NCBI RefSeq assembly: GCF_004684775.1
Contig: NZ_SRIC01000028.1
Coordinates: 1-50,503 of the forward strand
DNA length: 50,503 nucleotides
Reading direction: 5' to 3'
Source: Streptomyces sp. MZ04
Lineage (GTDB): Bacteria > Actinomycetota > Actinomycetes > Streptomycetales > Streptomycetaceae
Of the stretch, positions 42,105-50,503 are shown in pieces. The position numbers and the translations under genes are program-made. Below the pieces are notes generated by a model. That model did not search any database. It was not told where the DNA came from and saw nothing but the letters and a program-made list of their open reading frames with translations. How positions within the stretch are numbered: position 1 is the first letter of the stretch; each line of letters opens with the position of its first letter.

Positions 42105-43295
42105 TCAGCGACGCACCCGCGGCATCCCAAGGCCGATCCACGAGATGATCTCCCGCTGGATCTCGTTGTTGCCGCCGCCGAAGGTGAAGATGACGGCGCT
42201 GCGGTAGCCGCGCTCCAGTTCGCCGTGGAGCACGGCGCCCGCGGAGCCCTCCTTCAGGGCGCCGGCCGCGCCGACGACCTCCATGAGCCAGGCGTACGCG
42301 TCGCGGCGGGCCTCGGAGCCGTACACCTTGACGGCGGAGGCGTCCTGGGGGGTGAGGGTGCCCTCCTGGACGGCGTTCACCATCTGCCAGTTGAGGAGTT
42401 TCATCGCGTCCAGCTTGGCGTGGGTCCTGGCCAGGCGCTGGCGGACCCAGCCCAGGTCGATGACGCGGCGGCCGTCGGCGAGCTTGGTGTCGGCGGCCCA
42501 GCGCTGCACGTCGTGGAAGGCGCGGATGGCCATGGTGCCGTGGGCGGCGAGGGTGACGCGTTCGTGGTTGAGCTGGTTGGTGATGAGCCGCCAGCCCTTG
42601 TTCTCGTCGCCTACTCGGCGTGAGACCGGGACGCGGATGTTCTCGTAGTAGCTGGCCGTGGTGTCGTGCGAGGCAAGGGTGTTGATGATGGTGCAGGAGT
42701 AGCCGGGGTCGGACGTCGGGACGAGGAGCATGGTGATGCCCTTGTGCGGCGGGGCGTCCGGGTCGGTGCGGACGGCGAGCCAGACCCAGTCGGCGGTGTC
42801 GCCGTTGGTGGTCCAGATCTTCTGGCCGTTCACCGTGTAGTGGCCGGTGGCCTCGTCGCCCTCCCTGACCGCCTTGGTCTTCAGGGCGGCGAGGTCGGTC
42901 CCCGCGTCGGGCTCGCTGTAGCCGATCGCGAAGTCGAGTTCCCCGGAGAGGATCCTCGGCAGGAAGTACGCCTTCTGCTCCTCCGTACCGAACCGCATGA
43001 TCGTCGGCCCGACGGTGTTCAGGGCCATCAGCGGCAGCGGGACCCCGGCCTGGGCGGCCTCGTCGAAGAAGATGAACTGCTCCATGGGCGTGAGCCCGCG
43101 CCCGCCGTACTCCTCGGGCCAGCCGACGCCGAGCCAGCCGTCGGTGCCGAGGCGCCGGACGGTCTCCCGGTAGAACCGCTTCTGGGCGGCGGGGTCCTCG
43201 TACCGGGCATAGGCGTTGTCGGGCACGAGGTCGGCGAAGTAGGCGCGCAGCTCGGTGCGCAACTTCCGCTGCTCAGGCGTGTATTCGAGGTGCAC
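42105..43295 (-). CDS. Acyl-CoA dehydrogenase (FadE26-like)
   Basis: A 396-residue FAD acyl-CoA dehydrogenase. Features: GYSEPDAGTDLAALKTKA (flavin/substrate loop), KIWTTNGDTADW, RRVGDENKGWRLITNQLNHER, and C-terminal FTFGGGNNEIQREIISW. The motif style (EPDAGTD, GGGNNEIQR) is that of actinobacterial steroid-type enzymes such as FadE26/FadE17, which work as heteromeric pairs. No partner is adjacent. GTG 43295 has AGGAGG six bases upstream. A KstR-type box stands 64 bases upstream, matching the one at the enoyl-CoA hydratase/acyl-CoA synthetase promoter. Confidence 0.9.
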   Translation of the reverse strand: MHLEYTPEQRKLRTELRAYFADLVPDNAYARYEDPAAQKRFYRETVRRLGTDGWLGVGWPEEYGGRGLTPMEQFIFFDEAAQAGVPLPLMALNTVGPTIMRFGTEEQKAYFLPRILSGELDFAIGYSEPDAGTDLAALKTKAVREGDEATGHYTVNGQKIWTTNGDTADWVWLAVRTDPDAPPHKGITMLLVPTSDPGYSCTIINTLASHDTTASYYENIRVPVSRRVGDENKGWRLITNQLNHERVTLAAHGTMAIRAFHDVQRWAADTKLADGRRVIDLGWVRQRLARTHAKLDAMKLLNWQMVNAVQEGTLTPQDASAVKVYGSEARRDAYAWLMEVVGAAGALKEGSAGAVLHGELERGYRSAVIFTFGGGNNEIQREIISWIGLGMPRVRR

Positions 43296-43358
43296 GGCCC
43301 CTCCTGCGTTCGCTGGCCGACATGGCCTTGTACGGCCTCGACTTGACGGCGCACACAG

Positions 43359-43372
43359 TAGAACGCGTTTCA
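43359..43372. promoter_or_regulatory. KstR-type operator, copy 2
   Basis: TAGAACGCGTTTCA fits TnnAACnnGTTnnA at every fixed position and is nearly the full TAGAACnnGTTCTA palindrome. It lies upstream of the acyl-CoA dehydrogenase gene. Confidence 0.6.
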
Positions 43373-43419
43373 AAAATTGGGAATGGCGGCGGCACTCGCG
43401 CCCGGAGCATGGGCGGCGA

Positions 43420-44013
43420 TCAATCCGGAGCGCCGCCCGGTCGGGCCACCCCATCGGCGCTGTAGAGCACCTGTGCCGCGCCCCACTCCACGAAAGAGTC
43501 CGCCTGCCGCATGCCGATGACTTCGAGCAGCCGCCGCGAACGGACATTGGCCTGCTGCGTGACCGCGACCACCTCCGACCCCACGGGGGTGGTCGCCCCA
43601 TGCGCCCACGCCACCACGGCGGCGACCGCCTCACGCCCGTACCCGAACCCCCATTGCTCGGGCAGCAGTTGATACGACACCTCGATACGGTCGTCCCGGC
43701 GCCGATCGGGTTCCAGGAGTACGCCGCCGACCACCGCGCCGTCCCCGCGCGAGACCACGCAGAACGCGCCCCGCGCACCGACACAGTGCCGCTCGCGCAG
43801 CCGCACCGTTTCCTCGTCGACGGGACCGCCGAGATAGCGGCGGACCTCGGGGTCCGTCCAGAGCCGCGCGGTGGCGGGGACGTCGCTCTCCTCGATGGGG
43901 CGCAGGACCAGCCGGTCCGTGGTCAGGGTGGTCGGCCAGGGGAACGCACAAGGCGATGTCGGCATGCGGTTGATCATGCCCCACCGCTCGCACCGGCCGA
44001 TGCCGGGCCGCAC
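43420..44013 (-). CDS. GNAT-family acetyltransferase (RimJ/RimL-like)
   Basis: A protein of up to 197 residues with a GNAT fold of the RimJ/RimL type: [19 protein letters not shown] at the start of the domain, [19 protein letters not shown] as the acetyl-CoA-binding segment (R/Q-x-x-G-x-G/A region) and [13 protein letters not shown] near the end. It would acetylate a protein N-terminus or small amine; the substrate is unknown. The start is uncertain. GTG 44013 has GGAG upstream, but that site lies in the stem of the icd terminator. ATG 43977 is an alternative without a clear site. Confidence 0.78.
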
Positions 44014-44020
44014 GTAACAG

Positions 44021-44056
44021 CTCCGCCCCGGCAGGTCGAGGCCTGTCGGGGCGGAG
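44021..44056 (-). terminator. Stem-loop terminator after icd
   Basis: CTCCGCCCCGGCAGG (44021-44035) pairs with CCTGTCGGGGCGGAG (44042-44056), 15 bp with one G-T, loop of six. It begins 19 bases past the icd stop. Confidence 0.8.
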
Positions 44057-44075
44057 TCGGGTGTGCCGGGGTGGG

Positions 44076-46339
<2,264 letters not shown>

Positions 46340-46387
46340 TCTCCTGATCGCCCTCTTCCACGAAGCGGCCCTATTGTGCCGGTTTGC

Positions 46388-46816
46388 TCACAGTCCGTAG
46401 TGCTCGTGCAGCCAGTCGAAGAGCTCCAGGCACACGCTCAGCGCCCAGTCCATGATCTCGGAGAACTGCGCGGGGGTGACCTCCAGCACACCCGGCAGCG
46501 TCCAGCCGCCGTGCAGGTCGCTCTGCCCGCTGTCGTTCTCGTACACGTACGCCTTGGGCAGCAGGTGCTCCTGGTTGTACTGGTTCACCGCCGCCACGGC
46601 CAGCGGCACCTTGTCCTTGGGGATGAAGCCGCTGTCGGTCATCGAGAAGTGCACCATCTCGCCGATGTCCGCCACGAGGAGGGTGACACTGTCGCGGCCG
46701 GGGTTGTCGACGGAGAACTGCAGCAGGCGCGTGTCACCGCTGACCTGGTAGCGGTAGTCCTTCTCGCGCGCGTAGTCGTGCAGCAGCTGACGCCAGGTGT
46801 CGCTGAAGGTGGCCAT
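46388..46816 (-). CDS. YbjN-domain (type III chaperone-like) protein
   Basis: A 142-residue acidic protein of the YbjN family. It has the alternating strand pattern YQVSGDTRLLQFSVDNP and DSVTLLVADIGEMVHFSM, and a C-terminal amphipathic helix (QFSEIMDWALSVCLELFDWL). The fold resembles type III secretion chaperones; YbjN proteins are often linked to stress and motility regulation. The function here is unknown. ATG 46816 has AAGGAG eight bases upstream. The leader contains five tandem 13-14-bp repeats (46829-46895). It lies between the Hsp70-like gene and icd on the same strand. Confidence 0.78.
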   Translation of the reverse strand: MATFSDTWRQLLHDYAREKDYRYQVSGDTRLLQFSVDNPGRDSVTLLVADIGEMVHFSMTDSGFIPKDKVPLAVAAVNQYNQEHLLPKAYVYENDSGQSDLHGGWTLPGVLEVTPAQFSEIMDWALSVCLELFDWLHEHYGL

Positions 46817-46828
46817 GTGGACCACTCC

Positions 46829-46895
46829 TTCCGGGTTGAACTTCCGGGTTGAACTTTCCGGGTTGAACTTTCCGGGTCGGACTTCCGGGTGGGAC
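46829..46895. repeat. 13-14-bp tandem array in the YbjN leader (5 copies)
   Basis: TTCCGGGTTGAAC(T) or close variants at 46829, 46842, 46856, 46870 and 46883. On the coding strand each copy contains CCCGGAAGT or CCCGGAAAGT, and the last one becomes CCCGGAAGGAGT, the ribosome-binding site of the YbjN gene. Confidence 0.95.
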
Positions 46896-46910
46896 GGGAT
46901 GTTCGCTTCG

Positions 46911-48125
46911 CTAGCGCGCGTACCTGCGTACGCGCTCGATGAGGTCGTGGTCGAGTCCGTCGCGCAACAGCCGGGCCACCGGGTCGCCGGGCGCGAGCCC
47001 CGGCGGGAGCTCGCCCTCGGCCAGGACGCGCCGGGCGAGCAGCACCGCGCCGCCCGCCACCGCGAGGTCCGGGTCGGGCAGCAGCCGCACGGTCCGCCGC
47101 GACCGGTCCGACAGGGCCTCGCCCACCGCGCGCAGCCGGCTGCTGCCGCCGACGGGCACGACCGTGTCGACGTCCGTCCAGGTGAGCCCGGCGGCGGCGA
47201 GCGTGCGCTCGCACTCCGTGAGGGTGCGTTCGAGGAAGGGGCCGAGCAGCTCCGCCAGCTCGCCGCTGTCCATGGTCACCGGCACGAATCCGCCGTCGGC
47301 CGCGAAGTACTCGGTGTGGTCGTTCACCACGGAGAGCTGGTGCTTGAGCGTCTGGCACTGGGAGAGCATCTGGAGCCGCTCCAGGAGGGCGAATCCGTTC
47401 TGCGCGGGGGCCTCCAGGGCGGTGCGCACCACTTCGGGGAAGCGGGTGGAGAGCCTGCGCAGGATCTCCCGGTCGAAGGCACCGCCGCCGACGTCCGCGA
47501 GGCCGCCGGGCGCACCGGCCAGCTCGAACTCCGCTCCGGCGCTGCGCGCCACCGCCACGTCGAAGGTGCCGCCGCCCAGGTCGTACACGAGGAAGCACTG
47601 CCGGTCCGCGGGGCGGTGCTCCGCGAAGGCGTGCGCGAGCGCCGCCACCGGTTCGGTGACCAGGCGTACGGTCGACCGCTGATATCCGGCGGTCTCGGCG
47701 ACCTGAAGCATCAGCTCGCGGTTGCCCTCCTCCCAGCTCGCCGGGACGGTGATCACCACGGCCCGCGGCTCCTCGGGGACCTGCCTGAGCGCGCAGGAGC
47801 GCAGGAACGAGAGCATCTCGCCGGTCAGCTCGTGCGGCTGCCGCCCCCGGCCCGCCACAAGCAGCGGCACCGACTCACCGAAGTGCCGCTTGAACTCCGC
47901 GTGGTACTCCACAGGGTTGGCCATACGGATCGCGAACGCTGCCTGCCCGACGGCCAGTTCACCGCGCGGCGTGGGGCACACCGCGGTCCTGATCGACAGA
48001 CCGGCGTGCGGTGCGGCGGGGTCCTTGACCCCCGTCACCGTGCCGTCAGGACGCCCGATGAGGAGCGCGGACGTGGACGTACCGAAGTCGATCCCGTGCA
48101 CGGTCCCCGGCGCCGCGCCGCTCAT
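46911..48125 (-). CDS. Hsp70-family protein reduced to the ATPase domain
   Basis: A 404-residue Hsp70/actin-fold ATPase. Phosphate-1 GIDFGTSTSALLIG (11-24), phosphate-2 YDLGGGTFDVAV (181-192) and the adenosine motif VVPVGGSSRLRAVG (322-335) are intact. The connecting motif DPDLAVAGGAVLLA ends near 364. Only about 40 residues remain after the nucleotide-binding domain, so there is no substrate-binding domain or lid. It would act as an ATP-driven switch rather than a classical chaperone. The ATG overlaps the stop of the dynamin-like gene (ATGA). Together with the GrpE-like gene two positions upstream, this gives a nucleotide-exchange pair around a membrane GTPase. Confidence 0.9.
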   Translation of the reverse strand: MSGAAPGTVHGIDFGTSTSALLIGRPDGTVTGVKDPAAPHAGLSIRTAVCPTPRGELAVGQAAFAIRMANPVEYHAEFKRHFGESVPLLVAGRGRQPHELTGEMLSFLRSCALRQVPEEPRAVVITVPASWEEGNRELMLQVAETAGYQRSTVRLVTEPVAALAHAFAEHRPADRQCFLVYDLGGGTFDVAVARSAGAEFELAGAPGGLADVGGGAFDREILRRLSTRFPEVVRTALEAPAQNGFALLERLQMLSQCQTLKHQLSVVNDHTEYFAADGGFVPVTMDSGELAELLGPFLERTLTECERTLAAAGLTWTDVDTVVPVGGSSRLRAVGEALSDRSRRTVRLLPDPDLAVAGGAVLLARRVLAEGELPPGLAPGDPVARLLRDGLDHDLIERVRRYAR

Positions 48126-50023
48126 GGCACACCCGCCAGATCCGCCAACTCCCCTGCGGAGTCGATGAGTCGGGTGTAGCGGTCCCTGCGCTCCGTCAGC
48201 TCGGCCCGCCGCGCCTGCTGCTCGGCCTCGCTGCGCCTGCGCTCCTCCTCCACTTCCCGGCGGGAGCGTTCCAGGGACTCCCTCGCCTCTTCGATGCCGC
48301 GCTCGATGTCGGCGACGAGCAGCCGCGAGATCTCCCGCGCGGCGTCGTCGAACGCGGCGAGCGCGCGTGCCTCGTTGGCCCTGATCTGCGCCACCGTCCC
48401 GGAGGTGAGGGCGCGCACCGCCTCCCTGGACCACTCCTTGCGCTCACGCTCCGCGCGTTCGCGCTCGGCACGCCGCGAGTCGGACCAGCCGGTGATGGCG
48501 CCCACGACCTTGCCGAGAAGTCCGCCGCACGCCGCACCGATGGCGATGCCCGGCGGCCCGCCGACCACACCGATCAGCCCGCCGATCACTCCGCCGAGCC
48601 CGGCCCCGGCGATCGCCGACCGCCAGGTGTTGCTCAGGTGATGGGCCGGCTGCCCCGAACCCGCGTCGAGTCCCGGCGGCGCCGCGGTGACGCCGTGCAG
48701 GGCCGGCGTGAACCCGCCGACGGTGAAACTGGCAGGCTGGTAGGGGACTTGGGTCTGGGCGGCGAAAGCCTGCTGCACCTGGCTCGCGGCGTCGCGCAAC
48801 CGCTCCATCGCCACCTCGACCCCGTCCACCAGGAGCCGCCCGATCTCCCGTACGACGTCGTCGAGTTGACCGGGATCGGTCGCCATCGCGGCGGTCGCCG
48901 CGAACTCCTGGCAGGCCGCCTCGAAGATGCCCTGGAGCCCCTGCTCGATCCGCCGCGTCTCGTCGTGGAACACCCGGGGCAGTTCCGTGCGCCAGTGCGC
49001 GCTGCGGGCCTGGAGGTCCGCCGCCAGCTCGGCGCGGCGGGCCAGCTCCTGGTCGAACCGCTCGACCTCCGCGTCGGAGCGGCTCTCAAGCGCCAGGTCG
49101 ATGGGCGCGCGGGCCGCCGTCAGGGCCTCGGCGAGGCCCTCGGCGCAGCGCGCGACCCGCTGCCGGCCCACCCGCGTGGCCAGGCCGTCCCACAGCTCCT
49201 TCTCCAGGTCGGGGAAGCCGGAGTCGGCGAGCATCTCGGCGTCGCCGGACTGGCGCGCCGAGGCGCGCAGCGGCGATGACACGGGCAGGACGACGAGGTC
49301 GCCCTCGGCGCGCCCGGTCACATCGGCGATCTTGTGACGGGCGGCCCGCAGCGAGGGTTCCGGGTCGACCACCTGGTCGCTGCGGGTGAGCACCGTGATC
49401 ACGGTCGGGCACTTGGCCAACGCCCGTTTCAGAAAGGCGAGTTCGTCGGTGCTGAAGGTGACCACCAGGTCGCCGACGAAGATCAGCGCGTCGGCCTGCC
49501 CCAGGAAGGCGTGGGTCGCCGCGTCGTGGGCGAGGTTCATGCTGCCGACGCCCGGTGTGTCGACCATGACGAGACCGGTGCGCAGCTGGTCGAGCGGCAG
49601 CTGGATGCGGACGAGGTGGACGTTGCGTACGTTCTGCTCGTTCTTCTGCTCGGTGACGTAGTCGCGCAGTTCGGCCAACGGCACGTCCACCGCGATGAGT
49701 TCCTCGCCCTCCGCCTCCGGGGCGAGATAGGCGGTGGCCCGCTCGTCGGTGCCGTACTCCAGGGTGGAGACGGTGTTGGTCGCCACATGCACGTCGACGG
49801 GGAAAAGCCCCGGCCGTCCGATCAACGCGTTGAGCAGGCTCGACTTGCCGCGCTTGTACTCGCCGCAGACGACCACGTGGTACTGCAGGCCCTCCAGCGT
49901 GGCGCGGTACTCCGAGAGGCGTCGCGGCGGCTCCCGTCCCACCTCCGGGTCGGCGCTCAGGGCCTGTTCGGCGTCCGTGAAGAGGGTCCGGGCGCGGGTC
50001 CGCAGCGGCTCGAGGTCCGTCAT
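48122..50023 (-). CDS. Dynamin-like GTPase with a hydrophobic hairpin
   Basis: A 633-residue dynamin-superfamily GTPase. G1 is GEYKRGKS (54-61), the G2 Thr is in VATNTVST, G3 is DTPG (155-158) and G4 is TRSD (213-216). A helical middle region follows. Residues about 470-512 form a Gly-rich hydrophobic double segment (GLGGVIGGLIGVVGG and GIAIGAACGGLLGKVVGAI) that could insert in membranes. A highly charged coiled coil (about 515-620) closes the protein. Bacterial dynamin-like proteins remodel or protect membranes. Its ATG overlaps the stop of the GrpE-like gene and its stop overlaps the Hsp70-like start, so all three are translationally coupled. AAGGAG precedes the ATG. Confidence 0.9.
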   Translation of the reverse strand: MTDLEPLRTRARTLFTDAEQALSADPEVGREPPRRLSEYRATLEGLQYHVVVCGEYKRGKSSLLNALIGRPGLFPVDVHVATNTVSTLEYGTDERATAYLAPEAEGEELIAVDVPLAELRDYVTEQKNEQNVRNVHLVRIQLPLDQLRTGLVMVDTPGVGSMNLAHDAATHAFLGQADALIFVGDLVVTFSTDELAFLKRALAKCPTVITVLTRSDQVVDPEPSLRAARHKIADVTGRAEGDLVVLPVSSPLRASARQSGDAEMLADSGFPDLEKELWDGLATRVGRQRVARCAEGLAEALTAARAPIDLALESRSDAEVERFDQELARRAELAADLQARSAHWRTELPRVFHDETRRIEQGLQGIFEAACQEFAATAAMATDPGQLDDVVREIGRLLVDGVEVAMERLRDAASQVQQAFAAQTQVPYQPASFTVGGFTPALHGVTAAPPGLDAGSGQPAHHLSNTWRSAIAGAGLGGVIGGLIGVVGGPPGIAIGAACGGLLGKVVGAITGWSDSRRAERERAERERKEWSREAVRALTSGTVAQIRANEARALAAFDDAAREISRLLVADIERGIEEARESLERSRREVEEERRRSEAEQQARRAELTERRDRYTRLIDSAGELADLAGVP

Positions 50024-50447
50024 GGCCCGGCTCCTTCCTTCGCGGCCACGTAGACGCTGACCTGGGCAGGACGCACGGGTTCGGCGCGCCAGAGGTAGCC
50101 GGGGCGCAGATTGGTCGCGACGTGGTTGACCAGTTCGGGACGGGGTGCGGGCTCGGAGTCCACCGACTCGTGGCGCTGCGGGTCGAGTTCGCCCTCGCCT
50201 TCGTACGGCCGCACCTCGCAGTCGGCGAGCATCCGCAGGACGGACTGCTCCAGCCAGTCGAGTACGGAGGCGTCGAGAGGCACGCCTGCGGGCCGCCCGC
50301 GCAGGGTCGCCACGCGGTCCAGGATGTCGATCAGGCCGGACACGACGGGGAGGGGCCCCTCGCCGTCGGTCTCGGCGACCGGAGCGGTGACCGGAGTGAC
50401 GGCCGGAGCGGTGACCTGCACCGGTAGGGGCGGCGGCGGTTCGGGGG
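50020..50447 (-). CDS. GrpE-like nucleotide exchange factor, 5' end missing
   Basis: The C-terminal part of a GrpE-type protein. The pattern LRMLADCEVRPYEGEGELDP, then RHESVDSEP and TNLRPGYLWRAEPVRPAQVSVY is the GrpE beta-domain that contacts the Hsp70 ATPase lobe. The frame stays open into the adapter at 50448, and the last genomic codons encode a Pro-rich stretch, so the gene is truncated by the contig end. GTG 50421 could be a start, but nothing supports it. It is the first visible gene of the operon with the dynamin-like GTPase and Hsp70 ATPase genes; others may lie upstream. Confidence 0.8.
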
Positions 50448-50503
50448 CTGGCTCTTATACACATCTCCGAGCCCACGAGACGCTCATGAATCTCGTATGC
50501 CGT
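50448..50503. other. Illumina Nextera adapter read-through (not genomic)
   Basis: 50448-50466 matches the mosaic end with one mismatch (core CTCTTATACACATCT). 50467-50481 is CCGAGCCCACGAGAC. 50482-50489 (GCTCATGA) is an 8-base i7 index, and 50490-50503 (ATCTCGTATGCCGT) is P7 adapter. On the minus strand this gives the artefact peptide MGSEMCIR. Confidence 0.98.

Follow-up and report, generated by a model that had tools for sequence, protein, structure and literature searches.

The window analysed here, i.e. the whole 50,503-nucleotide stretch of contig NZ_SRIC01000028.1 from Streptomyces sp. MZ04, ends in a gene cassette encoding a GrpE-like protein, a dynamin-like GTPase, an Hsp70 that comprises only the nucleotide-binding domain (NBD) and a YbjN-like protein. 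By the usual understanding, the ATPase domain of an Hsp70 drives a clamp that holds substrate. In the lineage described here the gene order and the protein families are evident, the ATPase is kept, the clamp, i.e. the substrate-binding domain (SBD), is gone in every tested relative, unrelated tails including receptor-type repeats stand in its place, and the genes are linked to dynamins across several phyla. To the reading that such an Hsp70 ATPase, fitted with a sensor and reset by GrpE, gates the membrane remodelling of a dynamin pair we give slightly less than even weight. In the following, dynB denotes the GTPase gene of the window and dynA the second dynamin-like gene, which lies upstream of GrpE in a relative. 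The four same-direction genes fill the last 4 kb of the window and comprise the following features:

50020-50447, minus strand: 3' part of the GrpE-like gene, encoding the C-terminal GrpE domain (PF01025); frame open to the contig end
50020-50023, minus strand: ATGA overlap of the GrpE-like and GTPase genes, read directly in the sequence
48122-50023, minus strand: dynB, dynamin-like GTPase of 633 aa with GTPase domain, long helices and a Gly-rich hydrophobic stretch (PF00350)
48122-48125, minus strand: ATGA overlap of the GTPase and Hsp70 genes, read directly in the sequence
46911-48125, minus strand: Hsp70, NBD only, 404 aa (PF00012)
46388-46816, minus strand: YbjN-like gene, 142 aa, the last gene of the cassette (PF10722)

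The window Hsp70 matches PF00012 with E = 7.4e-36 over positions 105-372 of the 599-position profile; two full-length Hsp70s of the same genome span positions 1-598. In the alignment with the DnaK of its own genome the homology ends at DnaK residue 351, with 39 residues of the window protein still to follow, in agreement with the roughly 40 residues past the ATPase domain given in the initial annotation, and the residues of all nucleotide motifs are kept, as had likewise been proposed there. The stretch of the DnaK linker is absent; the names given to the ATPase motifs and to the linker are our own assignment. Loss of the SBD is general, the homology with DnaK ending by residue 381 in 57 of 57 relatives. 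These are the Hsp70s whose alignment reaches DnaK residue 300, shorter fragments (contig ends, split frames, L087 and L042) having been dropped, and the alignments of L052, L066 and L092 are partial. The initial annotation had named a separate SBD gene next to the Hsp70 gene as evidence that would count against it; none was found adjacent, but the adjoining YbjN-like gene, whose product is predicted to have a protein-binding-type fold, comes close. Two extra Hsp70 matches on contig C621 were considered as further parts of the system and rejected, one lying among mre/penicillin-binding-protein-like genes (judged by eye) and the other scoring alike.

Beyond the NBD the relatives vary widely. WD40 repeats and Sel1 repeats were each identified in the tails of 7 of 58 Hsp70s, TPR (L069, L090), LRR (L092), beta-helix (L074), DUF5050 (L063) and bPH (L058) in single or few tails, and a strongly hydrophobic 19-mer is present in 22 of the 58. 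When the 47 long-tailed Hsp70s were compared by BLASTP, their NBDs formed one cluster and their tails 22 clusters. In an NBD tree of 65 rows (L051, L053, L054, L082, L089 and short rows left out) the 11 control Hsp70s, comprising DnaKs, the GAP1-N2 type and others, fall together in one clade, which a 98/97 branch separates from the cassette Hsp70s. The 13-row clade to which the window Hsp70 belongs (100/100) includes tails of the short, hydrophobic, bPH and WD40 kinds, and L115 sits on a very long branch. This combination of a constant NBD switch with a variable tail supports the proposed gating.

A search of named genomes with an alignment of 25 homologues yielded 104 relatives, and the best 80 (L050-L129) were kept. 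For 47 of these 80 loci the flanks extend 7.5 kb or more to either side, and all counts out of 47 refer to this full-flank set, the other 33 standing outside it; genes were counted in stop-to-stop frames with score thresholds of our own choice. Some genomes were fetched twice (L051/L031, L053/L032, L054/L033 and L082/L035), and L052, whose dynA and Hsp70 are split over several frames, was counted unmended. The cassette occurs in Actinomycetota, Cyanobacteriota, Bacillota, Bacteroidota, gammaproteobacterial endosymbionts and others. Two dynamins were found in 46 of the 47 full-flank loci, Hsp70 in 35, GrpE in 21, a C39-type peptidase in 20, a protein of ~190 aa (no Pfam match for the one member scanned) in 20 and YbjN in 7; two dynamins, Hsp70 and GrpE are present together in 15, and the Hsp70 lies on the strand of dynB in 30 of the 35 loci that have it. 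In a search from the Hsp70 side the nine best places in 291 Streptomyces genomes (at least 116 bits) all lie beside dynamins; the window Hsp70 finds matches in 291 of 291 genomes because DnaK-type proteins pass the limit too. At E ≤ 1e-10 dynB is found in 20 of 295 Streptomyces genomes, its close kind (at least 297 bits) at 7 places in 6 genomes, and Hsp70 was present at 13 of the 17 dynB places opened (out of 21) and absent from 4. Evidently, the neighbourhood for which the initial annotation had proposed a search recurs (35 of 47 full-flank relatives with Hsp70), and the homologous genes, whose separation would have told against it, are linked. This conserved linkage speaks for an ATPase switch coupled to a GTPase that remodels membranes.

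At the contig end the cassette is cut within the GrpE-like gene, and positions 50448-50503 are leftover sequencing adapter (Nextera i7, one mismatch). The closest intact relative, L029 of genome G280, has the order dynamin A, GrpE, dynamin B, Hsp70, YbjN and isocitrate dehydrogenase, with identities to the window genome of 95% (dynA), 92% (dynB), 95% (Hsp70) and 99% (YbjN). The window genome's own dynA is located at the end of another contig, C247. Both this contig end and that of the window cut the GrpE gene in its Pro-rich start, so that C247 and the window contig are very likely neighbours; as the second dynamin lies on the end of another contig, we infer, rather than read, its adjacency to GrpE in this genome. 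Other dynamin-family matches in the genome (C232 and C215) lie on contigs without an Hsp70 match. Looking for the upstream part in a related genome, as had been suggested, revealed dynA just upstream of GrpE in L029, and with the YbjN-like gene downstream the system is indeed larger than the three genes first described. Both ATGA junctions between those three genes are present (50023-50020 and 48125-48122), and their products would probably be made in fixed proportion. The gap that separates the Hsp70 and YbjN genes contains, at ~46820-46895, short tandem copies of an CCGGGTTGAACTT-like unit, and an Rfam scan of 43000-50503 at gathering scores returned zero structured RNA matches.

Genome G280 holds two diverged cassettes, the window-like L029 and L030, which carries C39 and ~190-aa genes. 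In L032 the C39-like gene (L032:10711-11532) lies beside a member of the ~190-aa family (L032:10136-10714), and both are absent from L029 and from the window. In the C39-type peptidases of the relatives the Cys is kept in 37 of 40, the Gln in 38 of 40, the His in 37 of 40 and the Asp in 39 of 40. Dynamin clusters of Streptomyces such as L034 and L061 are accompanied by two further genes, one for a conserved protein of ~350 aa (no Pfam match), the other for a CRP-like cNMP-binding regulator.

The GTPase encoded by dynB matches Dynamin_N (PF00350) in Pfam with E = 1.4e-23, and its key motif columns are invariant in the alignment of the 25 homologues; we take these columns to be G1, G3 and a TRSD-type G4, which bears out the intact GTPase motifs of the initial annotation. 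Residues 465-509 form a Gly-zipper-like hydrophobic stretch scoring 27.8 bits in Pfam, under the cut-off of 28.9. The dynB profile matches IniA (6j72) over almost its full length with E = 2.9e-70, and a Foldseek search with the AlphaFold2 model (pLDDT 76; residues 434-515 below 50 and thus of low confidence) returned IniA as the best match (TM 0.65/0.72), followed by BDLP1. The model supports a dynamin fold for dynB with a GTPase domain and a long helical bundle, and the outcome named in the initial annotation as counter-evidence, a structure prediction without this fold, did not occur. For the GrpE-like frame of the window a score of 27.1 bits against PF01025 (cut-off 25.8) was obtained, restricted to profile positions 97-163 of 165, and the C-terminal beta domain of GrpE is present. 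As for the long paired helix that typifies the N-terminus of GrpE exchange factors, the start of the window gene lies off the contig, and the intact L029 counterpart of the protein, of 151 aa, begins with a Pro-rich stretch. The cassette GrpE model matched the canonical GrpE of the genome at 1.9e-11.

The last gene of the window cassette matches PF10722 with E = 4.9e-10 and 40.2 bits (cut-off 22). A structure model of its product, built from 8 sequences (pLDDT 79), retrieved E. coli YbjN (6vu7; TM 0.70, E = 1.5e-4) and also AmyR, followed at E-values slightly over 0.001 by DR_1245 and by two type III secretion chaperones, CesT and SycN-YscB, so that the protein is predicted to adopt the YbjN/type III secretion chaperone fold. 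YbjN homologues lie downstream of Hsp70 in L029-L033 and L050-L056, and a short-tailed Hsp70 is followed by YbjN in the window and in 7 of 7 of L050-L056. Among the short-tailed Hsp70s of alignment A2 the C-terminal end contains L..GL in 7 of 7 rows, with AR or ART last in 6 of 7, and could possibly be a docking helix. In 32 of 291 Streptomyces genomes a member of the YbjN family was found, and the six best places (at least 218 bits) are cassettes. A YbjN domain fused onto other Hsp70 tails was looked for with filters off, and none was found. The view that YbjN is a fixed neighbour of isocitrate dehydrogenase was dismissed, as in 20 other genomes with the dehydrogenase gene its 1.5 kb flanks contained neither YbjN nor Hsp70 nor dynB.

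A vWA-PP2C-kinase triad immediately precedes the dynamin cassette in L031 and L032 and in 5 of 7 of L050-L056 (L050-L053 and L055). In L032 the kinase and PP2C pass the Pfam cut-offs and the vWA fails. Four YbjN loci outside cassettes were opened as well and contain a kinase-like gene and a vWA-PP2C-kinase-like triad, the names being assigned by eye on the basis of similarity to the proteins of L032. These triads presumably resemble the TerY-P triads.

With respect to the mechanism, the Hsp70 tail, or in the subtype of the window the separate YbjN protein, would sense or dock a cue; ATP binding, hydrolysis and GrpE-driven exchange would then switch the contact between Hsp70 and dynamin, and the two dynamins, as a hetero-oligomer, would seal, cut or open a membrane. 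All four elements, i.e. sensing, Hsp70-dynamin contact, GrpE reset and membrane output, are inferred. As a guess from the accessory genes and the patchy occurrence, the setting may be envelope stress or attack by phage or toxin. If such a switch exists, it would explain the on/off control of some bacterial dynamin pairs and make Hsp70 a signalling NTPase, and the type found in the window, as a small five-gene version, is easy to test. In a more specific and doubtful form of the proposal, the cassette would be an NLR-like receptor built around an Hsp70, in which the SBD has been swapped for interchangeable sensors (WD40, TPR, Sel1, LRR, beta-helix, membrane anchors, or YbjN in trans), GrpE provides the reset and the dynamin pair as output attacks or reseals the membrane; such cassettes would represent a novel type of receptor for stress or immunity, distributed over several phyla.

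Several observations weigh against the gating proposal. A recognisable Hsp70 is missing in 12 of the 47 full-flank loci, and six of these 12, from Kutzneria and Amycolatopsis (L112, L120, L123, L124, L126 and L128), keep a GrpE-like frame between their dynamins. No GrpE was identified in 26 of 47, among which are the otherwise window-like L050-L053, and the L029 GrpE reaches 25.1 bits, just below the Pfam cut-off of 25.8. Furthermore, the Hsp70 lies only on the strand opposite to dynB in 5 of 35 loci. Fewer than 60 residues follow the NBD in 14 of the 58 Hsp70s, not all of which have a YbjN partner (L059, L072, L086, L090, L103 and L115 are short-tailed without it). The YbjN proteins of other cassettes share only 24-28% identity with that of the window, and the one scanned among them scores 13.9 bits against the Pfam cut-off of 22; in 4 of 4 opened loci YbjN relatives occur elsewhere without dynamin or Hsp70.

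The initial annotation had cast the ATPase switch in analogy to Hsc70, with the Hsp70 dismantling used dynamin polymers as Hsc70 strips clathrin coats and GrpE recycling the Hsp70. This uncoating account would fit the unimpaired ATPase motifs and the GrpE-like protein, linked as they are to a self-assembling GTPase, but the SBD for gripping a coat is lacking in all 57 relatives, and swappable receptor-like repeats or hydrophobic segments replace it. A search for J-domains in the cassettes found none, one match lying in a locus without Hsp70 and one marginal match having no HPD, making a classic chaperone cycle, and with it the uncoating model, less likely; the loci that lack GrpE or Hsp70 count against it as well. 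Of the earlier idea, the switch and its linkage to the GTPase (35/47) have therefore held up, whereas the uncoating analogy is less favoured, and we regard it as quite unlikely. Plain membrane upkeep, in which a paired dynamin would serve septation or repair and Hsp70 and GrpE would only aid folding, appears improbable and is the least likely of the alternatives. It accords with the IniA-like structure of dynB and with the operon pairs in which, according to the available part of PMC6104087, most bacterial dynamins are encoded. However, the cassette is rare in the genus, which argues against a general division factor, and its Hsp70 is set apart from DnaK both by its domains and by its position in the tree.

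An anti-phage or abortive-infection system, in which a cue from the invader would flip the Hsp70 and the dynamins would wound the host membrane, is unlikely. In its favour are the patchy occurrence (6 of 295 genomes carry the close kind, at 7 places in all), the matches of dynB to the defence models LeoA (E = 2.4e-22) and LeoBC (1.5e-19), the sensor-like Hsp70 tails and the C39-type peptidase of relatives with its conserved Cys, Gln, His and Asp; the window's own kind, however, as represented by L029, is without the C39 gene. A defence scan, run without a control set, covered 112 of 160 hand-picked proteins from 41 actinobacterial loci (3 of the 112 being GrpE-like) and gave 5 matches to kinase models, 5 to mad6, 3 to mad2, 2 to CARF and single ones to Pycsar, Csx1 and Cas12f-type models (among 25 of 46 families). 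With few model matches, mostly generic kinases, no clear defence-island signal was obtained for these nearby proteins, and a defence island was rejected. Moreover, at the limits used, a dynB-like protein was found in zero phage records and in one plasmid record (Anabaena sp. 90). Owing to the few defence-model matches and the lack of a phage record, the anti-phage account was ranked below the general gating of a dynamin pair by a sensor-fitted Hsp70.

Two kinds of Hsp70-linked GTPase systems are already known, as far as the available parts of the sources describe them: Hsp70-linked dynamins of cyanobacteria (2018) and GTPase/HSP70/GrpE systems (2020). The former are the 'chaperone clade' of cyanobacterial dynamin-like proteins, which have a DnaK-domain gene downstream (PMC5827413). 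The likeness lies in a dynamin-like gene beside a DnaK-domain gene, and cyanobacterial loci such as L059, L062 and L069 hold dynB, dynA and Hsp70. In its available part, the account of that clade does not include GrpE, loss of the SBD, repeat tails, the peptidase or non-cyanobacterial phyla, and the clade is likened here by its description only. The latter are the GAP1-N2 GTPase systems with HSP70 and GrpE, some of which are described in the available part of the source as having an NBD-only HSP70 (PMC7159879, Kaur et al. 2020). They share the logic of GTPase, HSP70 and GrpE with the cassette, and the Streptomyces loci L217 and L218 have the GrpE-Hsp70 pair in common with it. L217 comprises GrpE, an Hsp70 (profile 1-510, control clade), fn3 below the cut-off, DO-GTPase2 and GAP1-N2. 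In contrast, the window cassette lacks GAP1-N2, double-GTPase and FN3 genes, and none of the three was found in the intact cassette L029 by gene order and matches. BLASTP of the five L217 components against the dynamin loci (1e-4) gave no match, the positive control L218 yielding 5 of 5; this negative excludes close relatives only, because the double-GTPases of L038 were missed by BLASTP and seen by Pfam. With the defining parts absent, membership in the GAP1-N2 systems was rejected. In L038 and L039 two double-GTPase-like genes lie between an NBD-only Hsp70 and the dynamin pair, possibly a hybrid with GAP1-type systems in which both kinds meet.

The closest solved structure to dynB, mycobacterial IniA, is reported in the available part of PMC6715688 to perform GTP-dependent fission in vitro, and its operon iniBAC likewise has a second dynamin; the description of that operon there names no Hsp70 or GrpE (PMC6715688). 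The LeoA and LeoBC dynamins of PADLOC are both matched by dynB below E = 1e-18, but over partial length and with moderate scores, and Hsp70 and GrpE had no PADLOC match. Among the matches listed from the open-access literature, no description of this gene set was found beyond the papers cited above. Finally, the cassette presumably resembles receptors of the STAND/NLR type, in which a switch NTPase is combined with interchangeable WD40, TPR, Sel1 or LRR repeats. Unlike in these receptors, the NTPase of the cassette has the Hsp70 fold and the output is a separate dynamin pair, which makes the relation one of resemblance, not of membership.

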